IMG/VR virus record: IMGVR_UViG_3300020578_000237
Coordinates: 1-35,181 of that record
Length of the DNA stretch: 35,181 bases
Source: a virus
Reading direction: 5' to 3' (one strand)
The translations under genes and the position numbers were made by a program. This document shows positions 5,312-35,181 of the stretch, piece by piece. The notes under the pieces are model-generated. The model saw only the letters and a list, made by a program, of their open reading frames with translations, did no database searches and was not told where the DNA came from. Positions within the stretch are counted from its first letter, which is position 1; every line of letters starts with the position of its first letter.

Positions 5312-7297
5312 TTATACAAACCTGACTTTTTGATTTTTATCATCTATAATTATTTTTTCTTTATTTTCATCGTAAAAATAGAATACAAATCTTAGTATTT
5401 TATTTTTGTATATAGCTGAATTATAAAAACTAAACGTATAGCAGTCACCTAAATATAGAAGTTTGCTATCTTTTATTTGTTCGTCAGACTTAAATAACAA
5501 AGTATTATTAATATCATCATAAATATCGTAATAAACTTCACCTAAATTTTCACATTCTAGATCAAATTTATGTTTAGAAGCAGAATAATGTCTATTTTTA
5601 TCAAAAAACATAACCTTAAAAGAAGAAACACTATCATTAGCAGAGCATGTTAAAGAAGATGTAGATAATGAGCATCTTAAATTCATTAATCGATATTCTG
5701 TTTCTTTATCATGAATATAAAAAGTATAAACTTCTGAAAGTATGTCTATATACTCTGTTGTTTCAGCAACTATATCAAAAATTTTATATTTCCACAATAT
5801 GTTTATATCTAAACTTTGTTTATTTACCAGATTATTAAGTATTAAAGAATCAAATCTTGATATTAAAGTATCATTAATTTGAATCATTTTTAATCCTTTT
5901 ATTCTTTCACCTTTAAAATCATCAACATCTTCTGTCAGTTCATCTTCAAGTATATAGTTTTCTACTTCATTAAGTTCTTCATCTATATAATTAAAATATA
6001 CATCTGCTACTACTGTTATATTTTTATTTGGGTTAATAATTTGTGAATCTAAAAAGTCTGTTTGAATTCCATTTTTTATATTTTTAATATAAAAATATTC
6101 ATTATTATCAAAATATCTTTTAAGTTTTTTAGATGGAATATTTTTATATTGCAAACTTTCTTCATTTATTTTTATGATAAGCTTAGGAACAAATTTTTTA
6201 TTTGTTAAATGTCTGCTACCAAATCTTTTAACAAAATAAGTGTAATAATTATAAATATACTCGTCGTCAAACGATATTAAAAATCCTTTATTAGGAATAT
6301 ATGCATTTGTATTGTCTGATTTGTACTTAAAATAATTTTTAATATATTTTGTAATGTCAAAAACAGCATTTTGATCAGGTTCTGTAATAAAACATTCTGA
6401 AATATAACTTTCTTCATCTTCATCATTTATAAATGTATCGATACTGTCAGTTACAAACCCTTTGTTTTCCCATAAAATATTATTTTCATTTTGATTACTT
6501 AAAGTTTCAAAATTGCATATTCCAAAATCAGAAAAGTGTATTGTATCTTTACCAAATCCTTCATCAAATATTTTATTCATTGGCTTTAATACTAATTTAT
6601 AATTAAAAGGCTTTATATTTCCTGATGTAACGTCATGTAAAACTATTTCACATTTAAAATTATCTGTATTAAAAATACTTTTATCATAATCATAAACAAG
6701 CTTTTCAAATAAATCATCTATGTCAAATGAAACAAGAATATTTGAATTTTCTAAACTTGCAAATTCACTTATTTCAATATTACTTGTTTCATTTAAAATA
6801 AAAACATCACTGACAGTATAAGTTAAATGTTGAAGCACTATAATATTATTTACATTAATTGCATTTATATTTAATTTTAAATTACCAGAAGGACCGTTTT
6901 GTTCAACAGAATTTACTGAATTTATTGCTAATACAATAAACTCAATTAATTGATCTTGTGTATATTCACTATTTTCTAAGCCTAATCCTATATAAATAGA
7001 GTCACTGGAGTTATCTAGATTATTTCCTAATGTAAGTTCTGTGTTTTCGGTATTACTTACAAAAATAAAATTAACAGAGTTATTATTTGCATCTGTTATT
7101 GTAAAATTTTCAAGATCTTGTGGCGTTGATTCATTAGTAAATTTTAAAAAAGAAATTTTTTCTTTTTTGTTTTCATTAAATAATTTAAATAAATCTAAAG
7201 TTGCTGCTTTACCTACGTTTGAATAAATTCCATCGTTATAAGATGTTTTTCTATTATTTACGTATGTGTCTTTATTAGCTTCTTTTATTATTAACAT
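5312..7297 (-). CDS. Baseplate/virion protein with N-terminal DNRLRE-like domain
   Basis: 661 residues. The N-terminus (about 1-260) carries DTYVNNRKT, GKAATLDLFKL and ISFLKFT, followed by YKLVLKPMN and a KDTIHFSDFG segment. This is the pattern of DNRLRE-type beta-sandwich modules found in secreted and phage surface proteins (an 'adTyv...n.g....L.lg' start, 'llkFdl', then an 'eegtG' strand). The C-terminal half is beta-rich and unrecognised. The start codon abuts the stop of the gp6-like gene with no spacer, so the two are probably translationally coupled. It is likely a baseplate or fibre-attachment protein; the sandwich may bind glycans. Confidence 0.6.
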   Translation of the reverse strand: MLIIKEANKDTYVNNRKTSYNDGIYSNVGKAATLDLFKLFNENKKEKISFLKFTNESTPQDLENFTITDANNNSVNFIFVSNTENTELTLGNNLDNSSDSIYIGLGLENSEYTQDQLIEFIVLAINSVNSVEQNGPSGNLKLNINAINVNNIIVLQHLTYTVSDVFILNETSNIEISEFASLENSNILVSFDIDDLFEKLVYDYDKSIFNTDNFKCEIVLHDVTSGNIKPFNYKLVLKPMNKIFDEGFGKDTIHFSDFGICNFETLSNQNENNILWENKGFVTDSIDTFINDEDEESYISECFITEPDQNAVFDITKYIKNYFKYKSDNTNAYIPNKGFLISFDDEYIYNYYTYFVKRFGSRHLTNKKFVPKLIIKINEESLQYKNIPSKKLKRYFDNNEYFYIKNIKNGIQTDFLDSQIINPNKNITVVADVYFNYIDEELNEVENYILEDELTEDVDDFKGERIKGLKMIQINDTLISRFDSLILNNLVNKQSLDINILWKYKIFDIVAETTEYIDILSEVYTFYIHDKETEYRLMNLRCSLSTSSLTCSANDSVSSFKVMFFDKNRHYSASKHKFDLECENLGEVYYDIYDDINNTLLFKSDEQIKDSKLLYLGDCYTFSFYNSAIYKNKILRFVFYFYDENKEKIIIDDKNQKVRFV

Positions 7298-16186: not shown

Positions 16187-17566
16187 ATGGCAACTTATAC
16201 AAATCAAATTGTAGTCATAGACAGCGGAAAACTAAAGAAAATATCTTCAAATGACTTTTTAGAAATAGCACATACAAGCGTTACAGGTAACGTATTACAT
16301 ATAACTACTGGTTCTATGTTAATGAGCAGCGGTAACTTAGAAGTAAACGGTAACGTTACTATAACCGGAAGTCTAACTCTTAATAATGCAAATATAGGAG
16401 TAGGATCAGGTTCAATCACAGGTGGCACTGGTACATTTAATGAATTACATGTTTCTGGCAGTACTACTATTATGGGAGACTTAACTGTCAACGGTACTAC
16501 AACAACAATAAACTCGTCTGTTATCACAATTGATGATCCTGTATTTATGGTAAATAAATTTAATAATATTTCAAATACAGGATCATTACCTTCAGCAATT
16601 GGTGAATTAGAAGGTATCGGATTTGATTATTGGAAACAAGAATCAGTAGGTTCATCATTAATAACTTCAGGAAGCGTTTATCTAATAACTGCAACTGGAA
16701 CTTTTGATTGGTCAACCAATACTTTTGGAGCTCCTACAGGTTCTATTGTTGAAGGTCAAACTACTTTTACTGCAACAACAGGAGGTTCTATTTCAGGAGT
16801 GCATAGTGCCGCTGTTAGACAAAGAGTTGAAAGTGGATTCTTTGGTTTTAGCAATGAATTAAATGCATTTACAGTTGTAGAAGGAGACTATAGCGGAGTA
16901 GGTGAATTAGTAGCAGGTTCATCTTCTTTAGGACAAGTTGTAGTAGGAAAAGTTAAAGCTTCTAGATATGATTCATCTGAAGGTATTTTAGATGGTTCTA
17001 ATTTGTACTTATATCCTAGCGGTACAAATGAAAGTGAAGTTTTAAGCTTATCATTTACAGGTGGAGCTTTTAATATAACAACTAATATAACTTCTGATTT
17101 AGAATTACGCGTTGGTTCTCAATCTATACTTAAATTAGACAGTGCAACTAATAGCGTTGTATTTGAAAAAGAAGCAGGAGTTTTATTACCTACTACTAGC
17201 AGCAACGAAATAGTAGGTAATAGAGTATTATGTCTTGACACTGCAGGTAAATTAAAACATTCAGATGCTGATAACACTGCTGTACAAGAATTAATTGGTG
17301 TATCATTAGGTGCTTCATCTGGTGATGATGGATTATTGGTTCATACTATTTTCGGAGCAAAAGTAGGAATTGAAAAAGATCCTGGAGCAACAGGATCTTA
17401 TACAGTAGGTCAACCTGTTTATTTATCAACAGATGATGCAGGAGGATATGTTACAAATGTTGCTCCAACTGGAGGTTATGTTTACAGAGCAGGTATTGTA
17501 GTTGCAGATGATTTAGAATTCACAACAGTTTTATGGATGCCTAAGCTTGTTGCTGACCTTGGTTAA
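16187..17566 (+). CDS. Probable abundant fibre or capsid-decoration protein
   Basis: 459 residues, clearly richer in G+C and in Gly/Ser/Thr/Val than its neighbours, with a strong AGGGG ribosome site six bases before the ATG, all signs of high expression. Residues about 45-115 build a ladder of short strands (GNLEVNGNVTITGSLTLNN, LHVSGSTTIMGDLTVNG, then TTTTINSSVITIDDPVF), the signature of marine T4-like phage fibre proteins. The C-terminal 100 residues include TVGQPVYLSTDDAGGYVTN and AGIVVADD, a beta-domain layout found in virion decoration-type proteins. It is alone on the plus strand and followed by a hairpin terminator, so it forms its own transcription unit. Confidence 0.72.
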   Translation: MATYTNQIVVIDSGKLKKISSNDFLEIAHTSVTGNVLHITTGSMLMSSGNLEVNGNVTITGSLTLNNANIGVGSGSITGGTGTFNELHVSGSTTIMGDLTVNGTTTTINSSVITIDDPVFMVNKFNNISNTGSLPSAIGELEGIGFDYWKQESVGSSLITSGSVYLITATGTFDWSTNTFGAPTGSIVEGQTTFTATTGGSISGVHSAAVRQRVESGFFGFSNELNAFTVVEGDYSGVGELVAGSSSLGQVVVGKVKASRYDSSEGILDGSNLYLYPSGTNESEVLSLSFTGGAFNITTNITSDLELRVGSQSILKLDSATNSVVFEKEAGVLLPTTSSNEIVGNRVLCLDTAGKLKHSDADNTAVQELIGVSLGASSGDDGLLVHTIFGAKVGIEKDPGATGSYTVGQPVYLSTDDAGGYVTNVAPTGGYVYRAGIVVADDLEFTTVLWMPKLVADLG

Positions 17567-23014: not shown

Positions 23015-23239
23015 TCAAGCTTCTTCTGGCTTTACCAAAGAAAACCTAACAAAATCATGAGTCATCTTTTTAAGAAGCCTTCCAGCTTTTCTTGCTCTTG
23101 CTCTTGCAGACTTTACTCCACCATCTGCTTTCAAACAATCCTCATGCATACTTTCTACTAGTGCCTTAAGCAATTCAAAATGCTCTGTCATTGTTGTGGG
23201 TACATGTTCTTGGGTCTCTTGTGTTACTGGTTCTGTCAT
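23015..23239 (-). CDS. Small basic histone H1-like (Hc1-type) protein
   Basis: 74 residues. The core EHFELLKALVESMHEDCLKADGG, then VKSARARARKAGRLLKKM, resembles bacterial Hc1/histone H1-like helices ('l..li..i..D..ka..g...a..R.Rk....Lkk'). The N-terminal 18 residues are a polar Thr/Glu/Pro tail, the C-terminus acidic. About 40% G+C against roughly 25% around it, and it uses codons such as GCA, AAG and CTT not favoured nearby, so it is probably a recent acquisition or under strong expression selection. It likely binds nucleic acid. Preceded by AAAGGTAATAAAA. Family assignment is tentative. Confidence 0.55.
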   Translation of the reverse strand: MTEPVTQETQEHVPTTMTEHFELLKALVESMHEDCLKADGGVKSARARARKAGRLLKKMTHDFVRFSLVKPEEA

Positions 23240-27398: not shown

Positions 27399-28223
27399 AT
27401 GATAAATAAATACTTAATAATACTTCTAATACTATTATCTTTTATAAACATAAAGAATACTGAAGATAGTATTATAAATACTAAAGTTATAAACAACTCA
27501 GTATTATCTATTACTTCTAAATTTGAAATAGATAAAGATGCTTCTTTTATAAACTGTATAACAGATAATATAACTTCAGTACGTGATTCATCTTATTGTT
27601 ATGATACTTCATTTATAACTACTCTATTATTAATTGAAAATCTACTAAATAATAATATAACTACTGCTTCTATAACAGCAATTAAATATAAAAATAATAT
27701 AAGATACTTAACCTCAGATCATGTATGTGAAGAACTAGTAAAAGATAAAAAAAGAATAGAGACGCTTTTAAACAATGAAGAATTATTTCAAGATATGCAA
27801 TATGTCAAGATAAATAACGTCAGCAAAATTAATAGCATTGACGGAAAAAACACTAATTTCATTTCTGTTATAAACAGAAATGAAAAATACGATATATGCG
27901 AAATAAAAATAGAAAAAGATATTGTAAAAGGAACAGAATTATCAAATAAAAATATTTTTTACGGAATCAATATTTATAATGCTTCTTCACCTAGAAACTT
28001 ATTATCTAATAATAGAGTTTATATAGAAAAAGGTCTTTATTTAGGAGATAAAAATAATAATAATTTATTTAATCTAAGAATATACGAAGGATCAAGTGGC
28101 TCACCTATTTTTTATAAAAATGAAATTATTTCAATAATATTTGCGTATAATAGAAAAATGAAAAATGTAAGCTATGGAACAAAAAGATCAGATATATTAG
28201 AATTTATTTCCAATAAGAATTAA
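27399..28223 (+). CDS. Secreted trypsin/chymotrypsin-like serine protease
   Basis: 274 residues. The N-terminus MINKYLIILLILLSFINI is a signal peptide or signal anchor. The catalytic triad can be read as His108 in RYLTSDHVC, Asp165 in NEKYDICEIKI and Ser233 in YEGSSGSPIFYKNEIISIIFAY, the last matching 'GdSGgP.f....vvGi'. FIN-C-ITDN near 50-56 and other Cys residues (53, 67, 110, 168) could form disulfides, consistent with export. Length and motif spacing fit the S1/S46-like two-barrel fold. It would act in the periplasm or envelope, perhaps in lysis, superinfection exclusion or degradation of host surface proteins. Weak ribosome site; its end overlaps the convergent next gene by 20 bases. Confidence 0.72.
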   Translation: MINKYLIILLILLSFINIKNTEDSIINTKVINNSVLSITSKFEIDKDASFINCITDNITSVRDSSYCYDTSFITTLLLIENLLNNNITTASITAIKYKNNIRYLTSDHVCEELVKDKKRIETLLNNEELFQDMQYVKINNVSKINSIDGKNTNFISVINRNEKYDICEIKIEKDIVKGTELSNKNIFYGINIYNASSPRNLLSNNRVYIEKGLYLGDKNNNNLFNLRIYEGSSGSPIFYKNEIISIIFAYNRKMKNVSYGTKRSDILEFISNKN

Positions 28224-28983: not shown

Positions 28984-29628
28984 ATGATAAATTATATAAA
29001 AAAGTACTTAAGCTTCATTATAAGAAATCAAAATATAAAATTAGTTTCTGAAAATAAAAAAATAAATGAAGGACTAGATTTTCATATAAAATACGATATA
29101 CCAATATACCAAAATGTTTATAGACAAGGCTCTGAATCGTATTTTAGTATGATAAATGAATGTAAAAGTCTTTACTTTAATAAAGAGCTAATATTAACTG
29201 AGGCGGATAAAGAACTTTTAGAAAGTGATATTGGTGATTTCGTAATAATAAATAATAAAAAAGTTTCTCTTGATTTTCCTTATGAATATTCACATAATGA
29301 AATAATAGAAGAAAGTTTTATATACGAAGATTCATGCTGCAGAATAGATGAAGTCAAATACCAAAACAAAGAAGTAGAATTAAATAAACCAAAAAGAGGC
29401 GGAACAAAAAAATTCTATGTATACGTAAGAGACCCCAAATCAGGAAATATAAAAAAAGTTTCATTTGGTGCTAAAGGAATGACAACAGGAATAAACAATC
29501 CTGAAAGAAGAAAATCTTTCGTAGCTAGACATAGATGCAAAACTCATGCAAATGACAAAACAAAAGCAGCATATTGGTCATGTAGATTACCTAGATATAT
29601 AGGTAATAGCAATCATAAATGGTGGTAA
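28984..29628 (+). CDS. Phage protein with conserved C-terminal Arg/Cys/His/Trp domain
   Basis: 214 residues. Residues about 137-214 form a domain shared by many large phages: RGGTKKFYVYVRDPKSG, KKVSFGAKGMTTG, then ERRKSFVARHRC and KTKAAYWSCRLPRYI. The His/Cys set (RHRCKTH, YWSC) suggests metal binding. The N-terminal part is variable; the first residues MINYIKKYLSFIIRNQNIKLVSE could be a capsid-targeting-like leader with a Leu-Val-Ser-Glu end, but less clearly than in the next genes. It ends in NHKWW and overlaps or abuts the following gene. Probable virion or head-associated protein; function unknown. Confidence 0.65.
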   Translation: MINYIKKYLSFIIRNQNIKLVSENKKINEGLDFHIKYDIPIYQNVYRQGSESYFSMINECKSLYFNKELILTEADKELLESDIGDFVIINNKKVSLDFPYEYSHNEIIEESFIYEDSCCRIDEVKYQNKEVELNKPKRGGTKKFYVYVRDPKSGNIKKVSFGAKGMTTGINNPERRKSFVARHRCKTHANDKTKAAYWSCRLPRYIGNSNHKWW

Positions 29629-29633
29629 AAAAA

Positions 29634-30122
29634 ATGAACAGAAAACAATACGAAAAATTATTCTTAAAATGGAAAAAAAATTTAATAAATGAAAATAGTG
29701 TTCTTGTTATAAGCAATCAAGTACAATCACCTGAACATCGTTTTGACCTATCACTAGGCGAACTAATTCCAGCATTATTCTTTATTAGAGATCAATCACA
29801 CCTTTTTCACTGGCAAACATTTTCATATTCTACTCATGTTGCCTTAGGAGAATTTTACGAAGAATATCTGGAATTATTAGATGAACTAATGGAAGGTATT
29901 ATAGGTGCCTACAAAATAAGACCAGTTATATCACAAGAAAATAAATTTCAAATCAACAATTTCTCAGAACAAGCTTTTCAAGAATTAATTGATTTTTCTT
30001 TAAAAATATTTACATCTGATATAAGAGTTTTAATAGATGAAAGTCTAACAGAAATACATAATAAAATAGATGAAATAGTAGAACTAATAAACATTCTTTC
30101 ATATAAATCGAGCTTAAAATGA
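29634..30122 (+). CDS. Helical-bundle phage protein (Dps/ferritin-like appearance, DUF5856-type)
   Basis: 162 residues from the chosen start. An earlier in-frame ATG at 29619 would add MVVKK but lies inside the end of the preceding gene; the start MNRKQYEKLFLKWKKNLINE fits related proteins better. The middle, LIPALFFIRDQSHLFHWQTFSYSTHVALGEFYEEYLELLDELMEGIIG, has the H-W-x-T...H..L..F Y.....L.D...E layout of phage DUF5856-type proteins, which look like a Dps/ferritin four-helix bundle. Its leader ends L-I-N-E, compatible with the I/L-x-E rule of T4-type prohead protease sites. It is followed by an ATGA overlap. Function unproven; an internal head protein is plausible. Confidence 0.65.
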   Translation: MNRKQYEKLFLKWKKNLINENSVLVISNQVQSPEHRFDLSLGELIPALFFIRDQSHLFHWQTFSYSTHVALGEFYEEYLELLDELMEGIIGAYKIRPVISQENKFQINNFSEQAFQELIDFSLKIFTSDIRVLIDESLTEIHNKIDEIVELINILSYKSSLK

Positions 30123-30355
30123 TTTCTTATAAATTACTAAAAGAATATGTAAATAAAATTTTAATAGAAGCAAAAAAGAAAAATAAAAAAAAGAAAAAAC
30201 CTGGAAATAAAAATTACTATAAAGGAACTAAAAAAAGTAATTCACAAATGGAATATGAAATAAATAAATGCTCAAAAACACCAAGACCAAAATCTTGCTA
30301 TGATTACTGGTCAGCTGACAAAACATACGATAAATCTAGAAAAAAACAAGGATAA
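30119..30355 (+). CDS. Small basic protein with capsid-targeting-like leader
   Basis: 78 residues. Starts MISYKLLKEYVNKILIEAKK, an amphipathic helix ending L-I-E, close in pattern to the MNIQLLKEYIYDIILSE leader of the next genes and to T4 internal-protein capsid-targeting sequences. The mature part would be very basic (KKKNKKKKKPGNK) with two Cys (NKCSKTPRPKSCYDYW), suited to packing with DNA in the head. Its last codons and stop (AAACAAGGATAA) form the upstream end of the 102-bp repeat that recurs twice downstream. ATGA overlap with the preceding gene. Confidence 0.6.
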   Translation: MISYKLLKEYVNKILIEAKKKNKKKKKPGNKNYYKGTKKSNSQMEYEINKCSKTPRPKSCYDYWSADKTYDKSRKKQG

Positions 30356-30443
30356 TAAAAATGAATATTCAATTACTAAAAGAATACATATATGATATTA
30401 TATTATCTGAAAATATATCAAAAGAAACACGCGCTAAATTAAG
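30342..30443 (+). repeat. Leader/capsid-targeting repeat, copy 1
   Basis: 102 bp made of a 19-base leader (aaaaacaaggataataaaa) and the ATG plus 27 codons of a peptide starting MNIQLLKEYIYDIILSE. Identical to copy 2 (30673-30774) and differing from copy 3 (30782-30883) by one leader base. The leader contains the last codons and stop of the 78-residue gene only here, so this is the ancestral location. Confidence 0.95.
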
Positions 30444-30651
30444 CAAAAAAGCAAAAGATGCAAATATGCCGCTATCAGCGCTAACAAGCGTTTATAGAAA
30501 AGGATTGAGCGCATGGTTAACAGGTCATAGACAAGGAACACCACAACATGCATGGGCAATGGGAAGAGTTAATTCATTCATAAGAGGCGGAAAAACAAGA
30601 AAAGTAGATAAAAAAGAATGGGAAAAAGTAAAAAAACATAGAAGCAAATAA
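30361..30651 (+). CDS. Capsid-targeting-like leader fused to DUF5824-like phage domain
   Basis: 96 residues. Residues 1-28 are the repeated leader (MNIQLLKEYIYDIILSENIS...AKL), with an L-S-E end like T4 gp21 prohead-protease sites. Residues about 33-90 read NMPLSALTSVYRKGLSAWLTG, HRQGTPQHAWAMGRVNSFI and GGKTRKVD, a conserved phage domain ('giP.svL..VY.RG..AWrtGHRpGt...qWa.aRVnSF') of unknown function, which I recall as DUF5824. It would be an internal head protein, cut after the leader and injected or packed with DNA. Start preceded by CAAGGATAATAAAA. Its end lies in the second repeat. Confidence 0.7.
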   Translation: MNIQLLKEYIYDIILSENISKETRAKLSKKAKDANMPLSALTSVYRKGLSAWLTGHRQGTPQHAWAMGRVNSFIRGGKTRKVDKKEWEKVKKHRSK

Positions 30652-30681
30652 TAAAATAAATTATAGAAAAATAAAAACAAG
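30622..30681 (+). repeat. Cassette-closing direct repeat, upstream copy
   Basis: 60 bp covering the last codons of the 96-residue gene and a fossil of the start of the 92-residue gene. It matches 31647-31707 with one single-base gap and about four mismatches. The 3' end, ataaaaacaag, overlaps the leader of repeat copy 2. Confidence 0.9.
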
Positions 30682-30774
30682 GATAATAAAAATGAATATT
30701 CAATTACTAAAAGAATACATATATGATATTATATTATCTGAAAATATATCAAAAGAAACACGCGCTAAATTAAG
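30673..30774 (+). repeat. Leader/capsid-targeting repeat, copy 2
   Basis: Base-for-base identical to copy 1 over 102 bp. It begins inside the closing repeat at the shared ataaaaacaag and is followed after a run of A by copy 3, giving a 109-bp tandem period between copies 2 and 3. Confidence 0.95.
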
Positions 30775-30835
30775 AAAAAATAAAAACAAGAATAATAAAA
30801 ATGAATATTCAATTACTAAAAGAATACATATATGA
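30692..30835 (+). pseudogene. Orphan capsid-targeting leader without cargo
   Basis: 47 codons: the 28-residue leader peptide, then RKNKNKNNKNEYSITKRIHI and a stop, where the tail is just copy 3 read in another frame. It has the AAGGAT ribosome site and could be translated, giving a targeting peptide with a basic non-functional tail. It looks like a leftover from tandem duplication of the leader module, although a translated decoy or coupling peptide cannot be excluded. Confidence 0.6.
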
Positions 30836-30883
30836 TATTATATTATCTGAAAATATATCAAAAGAAACACGCGCTAAATTAAG
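30782..30883 (+). repeat. Leader/capsid-targeting repeat, copy 3
   Basis: Same 102 bp as copies 1 and 2 except one base in the leader (aaggat to aagaat), which weakens the Shine-Dalgarno. The coding part carries no change, synonymous or otherwise, so the copies are recent or kept alike by gene conversion. Confidence 0.95.
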
Positions 30884-31511
30884 AAAAAAATCCCTACTTA
30901 ATCCTCATGCCAGTATGAGGGTAGTACGAGAGGTAGATGAAGAAGGTAGAGATATTATGGCGAGTGTTTCTAGCCTTTCAAAAAGTTCTTATATTCATTT
31001 ACCTAAAAATACTTGGACTTCTGTGTCAGCAGATGATTTGTCTGAGACTCAGATGCAAGAAATATGGAGTCTATTCAAGAGGACATATTTTTCTATAGGT
31101 ATGCACATAAGCAGCCTCGAAGAGTTATTCTTGAAGTGTCCTCATCTTATAATACTCGACAATGACGGTGACCAAATCATTAATGCCTTCATTGCTATGA
31201 CAAAAACAAAATGGGGCTACAAGCTCAACGCCCTAGGACATGACGGTACTAGACTTTCAAAGGATGCTATTATTAATAAACATTATGAACTACTTACAAC
31301 GAGCGGGTACTTTGCGGCTCTATCTGAGAAAATGGAGAGCGTAATGCGTGATAGAGGTCTCGAAAACGTGAAGGATTCACGCGTCTTATACTCTATTTTT
31401 GGAGACAAAATAGAAGTCGTTGAAGACGGATACTACATGAAGTACGTTGACTTAGTAGGTCTTAAGCGTAAATGTATCTTTGGTCTGCCTGTTATTCCTG
31501 AAAGTGTATGA
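30801..31511 (+). CDS. Imported head-cargo protein fused to capsid-targeting-like leader
   Basis: 236 residues. Residues 1-28 are the repeated leader; from about LRKKS the sequence changes abruptly to a body of about 39% G+C (235 of 600 bases over 30901-31500) with mixed codon use, against roughly 25% in the neighbours. The body has MQEIWSLFKRTYFSIGMHI, INAFIAMTKTKWGYKLNALGHDGT, SEKMESVMRDRG and DGYYMKYVDLVGLKRKCIFGLP. This resembles an uncharacterised phage family I recall with the pattern 'eiW..y..tY..iG.hl...FGhp', which looks GNAT-like in layout; no activity is shown. It is probably packed in the head and delivered with DNA. Confidence 0.68.
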   Translation: MNIQLLKEYIYDIILSENISKETRAKLRKKSLLNPHASMRVVREVDEEGRDIMASVSSLSKSSYIHLPKNTWTSVSADDLSETQMQEIWSLFKRTYFSIGMHISSLEELFLKCPHLIILDNDGDQIINAFIAMTKTKWGYKLNALGHDGTRLSKDAIINKHYELLTTSGYFAALSEKMESVMRDRGLENVKDSRVLYSIFGDKIEVVEDGYYMKYVDLVGLKRKCIFGLPVIPESV

Positions 31512-31593
31512 GACATAAAACTAGTAATAACAAGAGCGTCCTATACATACACAGCAATGAAGTCATATTTGAGTTTTGTAGTTCCTGTCCATT

Positions 31594-31638
31594 ATTTATC
31601 TTGTATTCCTTTTTAAAAATATGCGATACAAGATAAAT
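31594..31638. repeat. 13-bp perfect inverted repeat downstream of imported cargo
   Basis: atttatcttgtat at 31594-31606 and its exact complement at 31626-31638, with a 19-nt loop containing ttttaaaa. Neither side has a T-run, so it is not a typical intrinsic terminator. It lies in the 135-bp non-coding stretch between the imported cargo and the closing repeat and was probably brought in with the cargo. It may be an mRNA 3'-end stabiliser or an old mobile-element end. Confidence 0.7.
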
Positions 31639-31646
31639 ATGCATAC

Positions 31647-31707
31647 GAAAAAGTAAAAAAAACATAGAAGTAAATAACAAAATGAATTATAGAGAAATAA
31701 AAACAAG
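31647..31707 (+). repeat. Cassette-closing direct repeat, downstream copy
   Basis: 61 bp matching 30622-30681. Here the 3' part is the real start of the 92-residue gene (ATG at 31682, first codons to Thr-Ser), while the 5' part is an untranslated fossil of the end of the 96-residue gene. This shows that the original locus ran directly from the DUF5824-like gene into the 92-residue gene. Confidence 0.9.
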
Positions 31708-31960
31708 CAATGTGAATAACACAATTAGAATTTTTTTCTATGAAACATACAATAATAACAATTGGCACATGGATAAAGAAGATAGAATAATTAAAGTTTT
31801 ACATGGCGAAAACTGGTTTATTCAATTCGAAAATCAAATACCAAAGCTACTTATTAAAAATAATAATTATTTTATAAATAAAAATATCTATCACAGACTA
31901 CTAAATATAAATAGTAATAAAAATTTAATTCTTTCTATTAAAAAAACTAATTTATTTTAA
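31682..31960 (+). CDS. Small hypothetical protein, possibly cupin-like
   Basis: 92 residues. RIIKVLHGENWFIQFENQIPKLLIKNNNYFINKNIYHRLL has the strand order and His position of small cupin-like barrels ('vl.G.gw.fqf....p..l..g...fI....yHrl'), but only one of the usual metal ligands is plain, so the call is weak. The first ten codons are part of the closing repeat. It ends one base from the convergent giant gene. The leader lacks a capsid-targeting-like helix, so it is probably not a head cargo protein. Confidence 0.5.
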   Translation: MNYREIKTSNVNNTIRIFFYETYNNNNWHMDKEDRIIKVLHGENWFIQFENQIPKLLIKNNNYFINKNIYHRLLNINSNKNLILSIKKTNLF

Positions 31961-31961
31961 A

Positions 31962-34900
31962 TCAAAACAATAAAGCCTTAACATACTTTCTTATAAAACC
32001 ATCAGCTAATAAAAATTGCTTAGCTTCATTTAATTCTTTAATAAAATGTTCTTTATTACTATTGCAATATTTATTAATAATCTCTTCAACGTAATCAAAA
32101 AATTCAGAACTACAATCTTTATTTAATGATTCGATAAGAGACTCAAAAAAATATGTAAATATACTTGCATGTTGTTCTTCTCTTAATTTAATAAGAAAAA
32201 AATTATCTAAAATAGCATCATTGTCCTTTTTATCGTAATATTCAAAATTATTATTTAAATTATGTAATAAATAATCACCTAAAGCATATTTTGAAACTCC
32301 AGCTTCTCCATATAATTTCATTAAAATTAATATATTTTCTAAATTAATTGAATTTATATTACGTCTAATATAATTATATACTAAACTATCAAAACTAATA
32401 AAATCAAAATATCTTCTAATATTTTTACTAATGTTAACAATTACTTCATCATCTAATAAGTTTTTTTCATAATTTTTAAAAATATTAAAATAAAATGAAA
32501 CAAACTCTCTAGTAGATAAAAACTCTCTTTTATTAATTAATGAATTATTTGTTAAAACAATATAATCAATCAATGCTGAATGTAATATTAAATTATTAGT
32601 GCTACCATTTAATCTAAAATTAAACACACCACCATCACATGTAAAAATTTTAGAAAATAATTCTTTTAAAGTATGAACATCTATGAAATCAATAACTTCA
32701 ATCAAAATATTAATATCTTGAGAAGAACTATTTAATTTTGAAAAAATACTATATATCAAATAAATAAAATATTCAGTGCCTTCATTAAAATCAATATAAT
32801 ATAAAAAATATTCATTCAAAAAATCTTTTAATATTTCATTATATTTTTTACTAGCTAATAAATCTAATATTTTATCATAATCTATTAATTTTTTTATAAC
32901 TTCTTTACCAAAAAGAGCATTTGCTCTAATACCAACATAATCACTAAATAATAAAAATTGTTCAATATCATAATTTCTAGTCAATAAAGTTGTAACTTTA
33001 TATACAGTATTATCATCTATTTCTTCAATAAGCTTATAATAATTATTTAAATTAATTTTTCCAAAATTAATTTTTCTTATTTGTTTAAACGGTCTTCCTT
33101 TTATTTTAAATAAAGCAATATCAATTAACCTATAAATAAAATTATTAGAATACTGATAAATATTTGATATATCTATTTCATTATTAAAAAACTTCTTTTT
33201 AAAATTAATATAAGACTGTTGTGTTATTCCTAAAAATTCATATTTGCTTACATCAATATTACATGTAAAAAAATAGTCTTCATTAATTGGAAAATCACAC
33301 TCCTTAAACATAATATCAATATAAAATATTTTTTTGTCCAAACTAAACTCAGCTGTACTATCATACATTTCAGGACATTTTTCAAAAATAATAGAATTAA
33401 AATAATCAATATTATTAAAATAATATCTATTAATTAAACTATATCCATTAGTTACTTTTTCCTTAAAAAAATTAATCATCTCAAAAAAATTTGATTTATT
33501 TTTTATATCAAATATTGTTTTAAACAATCTAGTATTTTTTATTATATCAAAATACTCGTCACTTAATAATAATTTTTCAAAATTGATTTTGTCACCAATA
33601 TCATAATCTTCTTTATTTAAATCAAATTCTGAATCGTTTGCAGTCAATACGTTTGTTAATATATTATACAAATGATTATTATTGTTGCTACCATTTAAAC
33701 TATTTCTTAAAATTATTTTAAAAGTATCTTCTTCAAACGGTACATGCTTTAAATACTTTAAATTCAAAAGACTATAAGAATACTTAAAATCAGAAGCTTT
33801 TCTCTTAGCTTTTTCAATTATTTTATTTATTACAGAAATAGCAATATCACTGTCTATTTTTTTAAAAAATTCTTCAAATGTAATATAATCTTCATATAAA
33901 CCAATATTAGACACATACTCACTCATAGCCTCGACAAATAAACCTTCCTTTCTGTCAAAACTTTTAAATATACGATAAATGTAATCTACATAATCAAAAT
34001 ACTGACTACGAGATTTTAACTGTTGACTTTCTATAAAATAATTTATACTTTCTATATCATTTAAATCTATCAATCCTGATAAACTATCTAGAAACTCTGT
34101 CTCTGTTATATTTGCATTAATTTGATTATTATCAATAGAATACTGAGTTAATTTTCTTTGTATCTCACTAATATCCGCTTCAGACAATATTCCAAGAAGC
34201 TTTAATTCATCCATATGATGATTTAAATAATCACATGTTTCATCTGCAATTATTTCACATTCGTCATTTACACCAGATTGAATTTTTTTAACTTTTAAGC
34301 TTATTAAATAATTTACATTATTAGTATCTACATTTTTTGAATGCAATAAACATAAAAACATGTTTTCATTGTACTCCTTCCAAGTAGTTATCTTTTGAGT
34401 ACACCAAGAAACATTTGCATTAAAACTCTTTATACCACACTTAAAATCATACCCGGTAAAAGGCAAAACAACAATAACTTCACTATTCTCAAATACTTTA
34501 AAATAATTTACATTTTCAACAAACTGCTTCTTCACATTATACTTTTTATAAAAATCTTTATAAAAATTAATTCTATGAAATATAAAATTAAAATCAAAAT
34601 TACCTAAATCAATCAACCTCTTCTCGTCAGACTCAGAAATATTATAAAAATTCTTAATATATAAATCTCCAGCAAGTATACAGTCAACAGCTGAAACTTC
34701 GTCTCTTGTCTCCAAATACTTTATTATACTATCATACAACGGCAATACGCTTCTCAACTCAATAAATGTCCCGTCAATATTTCTATGTTTTCTACACTGC
34801 TGAATTATTAAATCCTCTTTTTTCTTTCTATCAATATCTAAACCACTACGCCTTATAACATGCTGACACTTTAATATCTCAACAATTACATTCTTCTCCT

Positions 34901-35181
34901 TTTTCTCTAACTTACGAGTCAAATCCCACTGCTTTTCAAACTCATCTCTATCAAAAACTATCTCTCTTTTTAAAAAATCATCAATATCTAACCCTTTCTT
35001 CCTCTTAATATCAATCTCCTTCTTTCTCTTAACCTCCATCTTCTCAATATCATCTAAATACAATAAATAATAATCACGCTTACGAACATCAGAATCACCT
35101 TCTAAAAAACTACTTTCTAAATTTTTTAAAAACTCTTCCTTGCTACTAACACCCGCCTCTAACTTCTTAATATCTCTAAAA
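31962..35181 (-). CDS. Giant helical phage protein, N-terminus beyond window
   Basis: The frame is open to the right edge, so the gene starts outside; at least 1072 residues are visible. A TTG at 35063 lies in this frame but in-frame codons continue upstream of it (FRDIKKLEAGVSSKEEF...), so it need not be the start. Around 34380-34410 the protein reads GIKSFNANVSWCTQKI then WKEYNENMFLCLLHSK, a 'WCT...Y...LY' element I recall from uncharacterised proteins of large phages. The remaining 800 residues are helical repeats rich in Ile, Asn, Phe and Tyr, with no other motif. The N-terminal 150 visible residues use AAG/GAG codons far more than the rest. Function unknown; internal virion or very large accessory protein possible. 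Confidence 0.65.
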   Translation of the reverse strand, partial: FRDIKKLEAGVSSKEEFLKNLESSFLEGDSDVRKRDYYLLYLDDIEKMEVKRKKEIDIKRKKGLDIDDFLKREIVFDRDEFEKQWDLTRKLEKKEKNVIVEILKCQHVIRRSGLDIDRKKKEDLIIQQCRKHRNIDGTFIELRSVLPLYDSIIKYLETRDEVSAVDCILAGDLYIKNFYNISESDEKRLIDLGNFDFNFIFHRINFYKDFYKKYNVKKQFVENVNYFKVFENSEVIVVLPFTGYDFKCGIKSFNANVSWCTQKITTWKEYNENMFLCLLHSKNVDTNNVNYLISLKVKKIQSGVNDECEIIADETCDYLNHHMDELKLLGILSEADISEIQRKLTQYSIDNNQINANITETEFLDSLSGLIDLNDIESINYFIESQQLKSRSQYFDYVDYIYRIFKSFDRKEGLFVEAMSEYVSNIGLYEDYITFEEFFKKIDSDIAISVINKIIEKAKRKASDFKYSYSLLNLKYLKHVPFEEDTFKIILRNSLNGSNNNNHLYNILTNVLTANDSEFDLNKEDYDIGDKINFEKLLLSDEYFDIIKNTRLFKTIFDIKNKSNFFEMINFFKEKVTNGYSLINRYYFNNIDYFNSIIFEKCPEMYDSTAEFSLDKKIFYIDIMFKECDFPINEDYFFTCNIDVSKYEFLGITQQSYINFKKKFFNNEIDISNIYQYSNNFIYRLIDIALFKIKGRPFKQIRKINFGKINLNNYYKLIEEIDDNTVYKVTTLLTRNYDIEQFLLFSDYVGIRANALFGKEVIKKLIDYDKILDLLASKKYNEILKDFLNEYFLYYIDFNEGTEYFIYLIYSIFSKLNSSSQDINILIEVIDFIDVHTLKELFSKIFTCDGGVFNFRLNGSTNNLILHSALIDYIVLTNNSLINKREFLSTREFVSFYFNIFKNYEKNLLDDEVIVNISKNIRRYFDFISFDSLVYNYIRRNINSINLENILILMKLYGEAGVSKYALGDYLLHNLNNNFEYYDKKDNDAILDNFFLIKLREEQHASIFTYFFESLIESLNKDCSSEFFDYVEEIINKYCNSNKEHFIKELNEAKQFLLADGFIRKYVKALLF

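Follow-up and report, generated by a model that had tools for sequence, protein, structure and literature searches.

Why does a phage genome carry nearly identical stretches of leader-coding DNA, one behind another and in front of different gene bodies, and what would such a leader do? The question is raised by a 35-kb viral fragment (hereafter the window, i.e. the whole stretch of 35,181 nucleotides that was analysed; 24.6% G+C) with T4-like baseplate genes (phrog_6 and phrog_43), to which no near-identical phage DNA was found. A run of small plus-strand genes spans positions 28984-31960. The conserved first gene of this cluster encodes a DUF5754-domain protein (28984-29628, +) and is followed by the gene of a Dps/ferritin-like protein (29634-30122, +; phrog_858, E 5e-15; DUF5856) with a leader-like N-terminus (NLINE), for which a single-protein scan returned no direct relatives. 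The neighbouring gene (30119-30355, +) joins a related leader, MISYKLLKEYVNKILIE, with leader DNA 80% identical over 35 nt, to an unrelated basic body and is conserved in relatives, and the last gene of the run (31682-31960, +), of the 'WHRDxEDR' family, is likewise a conserved cluster member there. Elsewhere in the window are a histone H1-like Hc1 gene (23015-23239, -; PF07432, E 1.3e-07, over the cut-off), an open reading frame (27399-28223, +) with a signal-peptide-like start, a GSSGSP motif as in trypsin-like proteases and no significant Pfam match, and the gene of a 1033-aa protein (31962-35063, -) that has no match in Pfam and none of significance in PHROG.

The repeated module is 108 nt long and occurs three times as a direct repeat on the plus strand, at 30342-30449, 30673-30780 and 30782-30889, the other two copies being 99% and 98% identical to copy 1. 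All three modules encode MNIQLLKEYIYDIILSENISKETRAKL, and copies 1 and 2 are identical across the first 102 nt. The threefold leader module of the original prediction is thereby confirmed; the single change that it placed in the leader of copy 3 does exist within the first 102 nt (AAGGATAAT to AAGAATAAT), but it affects a Shine-Dalgarno-like stretch ahead of the ATG and not the leader codons. In a comparison of 18,558 within-locus pairs of open reading frames (about 155 loci), the start regions of the three window leaders, which precede different bodies, have 94-95 nt of DNA in common at 97-100% identity; the runner-up among all pairs has 32 nt at 97%. The shared leader DNA is far beyond chance, and near-identical tandem leader DNA is unique to the window among these pairs. 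DNA-level sharing of leaders, weaker than that of the window, is present in the loci L037 and L180; the L037 genes at 6175, 7186 and 7621 have unrelated bodies and leaders (MKHIKTYEAFLNE and similar) that are 80-82% DNA-identical over 45-49 nt.

A second repeat, of 59 nt and 88% identity (30623-30681 versus 31649-31707), had been taken for a constant element that closes each cargo gene. The joint sequences led us to reject an independent element of this kind, as the repeat consists of the 3' end of the first cargo gene, which encodes a DUF5824 protein, and the beginning of the next gene (31682-31960). The joints at 30342, 30673 and 31699 have in common a 9-bp microhomology, AAAAACAAG. The upstream gene (30119-30355) ends in ...AGAAAAAAACAAGGATAATAAAAATG, the downstream gene (start at 31682) begins ...AGAGAAATAAAAACAAGCAATG, and where copies 1 and 2 meet, the left-hand part of the second of these sequences is fused at AAAAACAAG to the right-hand part of the first, which implies that the DUF5824 gene was tandemly duplicated between the 9-bp homologies as a 331-bp unit. 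The repeats are real, but, as read from these joints, they are a tandem duplication and not a designed cassette array. Copy 1 (30342-30672, +) represents the 331-bp unit, with a spacer, the complete leader-DUF5824 gene and a 3' spacer ending in a remnant of the start of the next gene. By direct-repeat comparison, copy 2 (30673-30781, +; 109 bp) has its body deleted, 222 bp being missing relative to the unit, and holds a leader-only stub reading frame of 47 aa with no cargo (30692-30835, +). Copy 3, as delimited by the repeat and joint sequences (30782-31698, +; 917 bp), has its DUF5824 body replaced by foreign DNA, 741 bp standing where about 156 bp of that body would be expected, and behind the stop of the second cargo gene a leftover of the DUF5824 3' end persists out of frame, continuing into the beginning of the next gene (31631-31707, +).

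The first cargo (30361-30651, +; 96 aa) consists of the leader MNIQLLKEYIYDIILSE and a basic helical DUF5824 domain, as judged by Pfam match, alignment and structural model. Its match to Pfam DUF5824 (PF19141, E 6e-12; 46.2 bits against a curated cut-off of 25) agrees with its earlier description as DUF5824-like. In the predicted structure, the leader is modelled as a helix with a pLDDT of about 65, while the body reaches about 90. A sigma-factor region 2 fold was considered for DUF5824 and is not claimed, the best PDB matches being weak (Foldseek E 0.8; Z 6.6) and obtained partly via the leader helix.

The second cargo (30801-31511, +; 236 aa) places the common leader before a predicted GNAT-fold domain (approximately residues 68-235). 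That its body would be distinct in G+C proved correct: the foreign insert, recognized by its composition (30890-31630, +; 741 bp), has 37.5% G+C in a window of 24.6%, and GC3 in its coding part is 0.35 as against 0.15-0.19 in the neighbouring genes. At its right edge, the insert has a perfect inverted repeat of 14 bp (31593-31639), a hairpin that is possibly the donor's terminator; inverted repeats of at least 13 bp are also present at 16533, 17591, 25063 and 27857 of the window, with mononucleotide shuffles giving 0-1.

No Pfam, PHROG or NCBIfam family matched cargo 2, a single-protein scan returned no direct relatives, a sequence search of the PDB gave insignificant matches only, none was found in plasmids, and none was confirmed in bacterial genomes by a weak procedure in which confirmation was by one sequence only. 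A 27% match in a 635-kb uncultured phage genome served as the seed of an alignment, by which 69 loci were found in viral contigs, with GHD and WG-K positions invariant across the family. The best PDB matches of its AlphaFold model (pLDDT 85.5) are GNAT proteins (Z 10.5, rmsd 3.5, 139 residues aligned), NatD and, tied with it, aminoglycoside 2'-N-acetyltransferases, and on this model cargo 2 has a predicted GNAT fold. The canonical acetyl-CoA motif A (Q/R-x-x-G-x-G/A) is not present, the family having QGIGHDGxxxSK and the window NALGHDGTRLSK in its place, and for this reason enzyme activity is not claimed. Reading frames that open with an intein-C-terminus-like segment (YANGILVHN) adjoin relatives of cargo 2 in L176 (at 4806) and L148 (at 4031); terminase-like and portal-like reading frames are also nearby in L176.

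The anatomy, the microhomology, the foreign composition and the intact in-frame fusion can be read from the DNA as it stands, and from them we infer an order of events. In a first step, the 9 bp AAAAACAAG in the 3' end of the upstream gene would have recombined with their second occurrence, where the downstream gene starts, and so have duplicated the leader-DUF5824 gene in tandem. The body of one copy would then have been exchanged for a foreign GNAT-fold gene body, fused in frame to the leader already present, with the former DUF5824 3' end left behind as an untranslated remnant. Finally, the leader segment would have been re-duplicated or converted, giving rise to the leader-only stub. With at most 2 differences in 108 positions, the leader modules have diverged less than the 3' segments, with 7 in 59 (p 0.01), and re-duplication or conversion of the leader part is therefore probably the more recent event.

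The same difference in divergence is also what gene conversion would leave if the array were a true exchange cassette, its flanks maintained as homology arms and its cargo repeatedly swapped between phages by recombination. T4 is able to amplify genes via recombination between short homologies (PMC9391042), and the weaker leader sharing in L037 and L180 points in this direction as well. However, duplication accounts for the 3' arm, a later re-duplication of the leader accounts equally for the leader identity, and no other cargo between the same flanks was found in the relatives, of which only L182 is close. This closest relative (79% identical in the basic gene, 71% in DUF5824) has one DUF5824 gene followed by unrelated sequence for 150 bp, where the contig ends. 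The original prediction that identical flanks serve homologous cargo exchange gained no clear support, the flanks having arisen by a duplication, and we consider an exchange cassette very unlikely.

The array could also be a decaying tandem duplication without functional weight, whose leader was copied passively, whose second copy is a pseudogene and whose second cargo is a transient, chance in-frame insertion. The stub in copy 2, the frameshifted DUF5824 3' remnant, the 7 differences in 59 positions of the 3' segments and the short A-rich microhomologies at the joints are all in keeping with decay, as is the weakened ribosome site of copy 3, at which the altered Shine-Dalgarno-like sequence suggests that cargo 2 may be poorly expressed. 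Yet cargo 2 is an intact reading frame of 236 aa that keeps the conserved core of a family present in 69 viral loci, and relatives attach leaders of their own to its domain. Given these properties, passive decay seems to us unlikely, and we proceed with duplication followed by capture of a foreign body.

What would the leader of such a captured body be for? By analogy with the internal proteins of T4, the leader is most likely a propeptide for capsid targeting. The T4 internal proteins IPI, IPII, IPIII and Alt carry capsid targeting sequences that are cut by gp21 (PMC9026906, PMC3012670), and this targeting sequence is all that the internal proteins have in common (PMC3012670). The window likewise has a short N-terminal leader ending in hydrophobic-x-Glu, MNIQLLKEYIYDIILSE, before the unrelated DUF5824 and GNAT-fold domains. 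A protein with such a leader would enter the prohead core and would be expected to be cut by an S77 prohead protease behind L-S-E (residue 17), the cargo leaving together with the DNA upon infection. The T4 IPIII-like core [FYL]xx[FY][ILMV]xE is matched by several leaders of Synechococcus phage S-CREM2 and of phage C48C1 but not by the window leader, which would thus work like that of T4 without being the same leader; the helical amphipathicity of the window leader is not above that of shuffles.

The 35-kb fragment does not cover the head region, and no S77 protease or head gene was found within it; the head context comes from relatives. DUF5824 relatives share the cluster of DUF5754, 'WHRDxEDR', basic protein and DUF5824, in which many genes begin with a short stretch that closes on L/I-x-E. 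In contig G005, the cluster is followed by a terminase (phrog_2, E 1.6e-50), a portal-like reading frame, an S77 protease, a scaffold-like reading frame and a Gp23 capsid protein (PF07068, E 2.4e-75) whose N-terminus is MANLVQSLLTESA. S77 was found in 13 of 31 DUF5824 contigs, a lower bound as these are fragments, and five of the eight related DUF5824 contigs that have a homologue of the window's gp6-like baseplate protein encode it. Genes of the head cluster are fused into single reading frames in L025 (5119-6261), L030 (4867-6276), L035 (5245-6282) and L048 (4930-6261), and these keep leader-like L-x-E segments (e.g. KIISETLELFLEKRG) between domains, as expected if a protease separates the domains; judging from their sequences, the fusions are possible protease-processed polyproteins. 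Across the relatives' reading frames, [LI]xE shows a roughly threefold enrichment at N-termini over positions further in. Strong N-terminal similarity between unrelated reading frames of the DUF5824 set is about 20 times more frequent within a contig than between contigs (1.0% versus 0.05%), with no within-contig excess for internal control segments; a slight excess was seen in the cargo-2 set (0.23% versus 0.13%).

Among complete genomes, a leader on the DUF5824 protein goes together with S77. It is present in all three genomes with the protease, C48C1, Melnitz and HTVC008M, where the protein starts MITFKKYLEE, MKKFSEIIEA and MKTLKELL respectively (DUF5824 being one domain of a longer protein in the latter two), and in none of the four genomes without it, HTVC026P, HTVC202P, MED4-184 and MED4-117, of which the last two are identical in this protein and count as one. 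Cargo-2 homologues are, in their first 12 residues, more similar to other N-termini from their own genome than to N-termini from different genomes (similarity 23.4 versus 19.4, p 1.5e-4), the internal control being flat (15.4 versus 15.2). Examples of same-genome leader pairs are MKHLKAFE beside MKYLKTFE in L084 and MKSFKTIYIE beside MKSFKTYITE in L180. By this measure, the cargo-2 family mostly carries the leader of the respective genome.

Virion proteins of S-CREM2 have been determined by mass spectrometry, the authors warning of possible contamination, and no mention of capsid targeting was found in the text of their paper (PMC10665884). In this list the T4-type leader core is present in 5 of 13 non-tail virion proteins, namely a SAM hydrolase, a Cas9-like nuclease, a kinase, a cytidylyltransferase and one hypothetical protein, as against 3 of 119 other reading frames in the two genome stretches examined (p 2e-4); since this core was taken from T4 IPIII when an initial pattern had matched only 1 of 13, the test is partly after the fact. 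That the other 8 of 13 have no such motif indicates that the leader is not the sole route into the virion. The virion Cas9-like nuclease (PMC10665884), gp12 (L240, 7704-10313, -), has the leader core RFASFMAEA near its N-terminus and, on this sequence feature, may be head-delivered.

A hydrophobic leader that is not identical to the T4 signal, and that is modelled as a helix, could conceivably be a docking peptide for a membrane, a replication centre, the tail or some other target outside the head, or simply part of the DUF5824 fold. The leader is, however, modelled with a confidence of about 65, versus about 90 for the body, DUF5824 proteins from phages without S77 have no leader, and leaders are found in head operons and on virion enzymes. 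We give these alternatives little credence. The capsid targeting put forward in the original prediction is supported in relatives, by head-operon context, by S77 and its co-occurrence with the leader and by S-CREM2 virions; for the window phage itself, whose fragment is without head genes, packaging, cleavage and injection are what we infer.

The locus resembles the T4 internal proteins in its short N-terminal propeptide ending in hydrophobic-x-Glu, in its unrelated small basic or enzymatic cargo and in the S77 protease and Gp23-type head of the window's relatives. It differs from them in a leader that is longer than that of T4 (MKTYQEFIAE) and of other sequence, targeting being argued by analogy, in its DUF5824 and GNAT-fold cargo, in the near-identical leader DNA in tandem, and in an insertion caught inside a leader-bearing gene, with packaging and cleavage predicted. 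Segmental amplification of T4 dmd-tifA by recombination at short homologies (PMC9391042) is similar in that a phage gene is tandemly duplicated between short flanking homologies. In contrast to dmd-tifA, the window copy then received a foreign body, and the events are reconstructed from one sequence rather than watched. Mobile regulatory cassettes of T4-type phages, reportedly described by Arbiol et al. in 2010, share with the window the modular shuffling around small genes and the hairpin at one edge of the insert, whereas the shared part in the window is a coding leader, with no promoter-stem-loop unit established. S-CREM2 is comparable in having enzymes in its virion and five virion proteins with T4-type leaders (present analysis of PMC10665884), but the cargo and leader sequence of the window are different.

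Taken together, the explanation that we favour, and consider probable, is a capsid-targeting leader of the T4 internal-protein type in an array that arose by duplication, capture of a foreign body and re-duplication or conversion of the leader. A constant leader with variable cargo was already known from T4 and noted for T-even phages; new here are the captured insertion event, the leader type and a family of GNAT-fold cargo that databases do not list, and the S-CREM2 comparison suggests in addition that leader presence predicts virion association in a marine T4-like phage. What the locus seems to capture is the process through which phages of this kind acquire new proteins for packing into the head and injection along with the DNA. 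A broader reading, speculative and on balance doubtful, is that leader capture is a standing route to head-delivered proteins in T4-related and very large phages, by duplication and then a foreign body in one copy, with leader-only stubs as landing sites and each genome building a private protein set under one leader. The first to act against host defences are proteins injected along with the phage genome; T4 IPI does so, and probably IPIII as well (PMC3012670, PMC9391042). Should packaging be predictable from the leader in T4-related and giant phages at large, which the S-CREM2 proteome suggests, sequence alone would suffice to list injected proteins, and this locus would show how a phage can add one.
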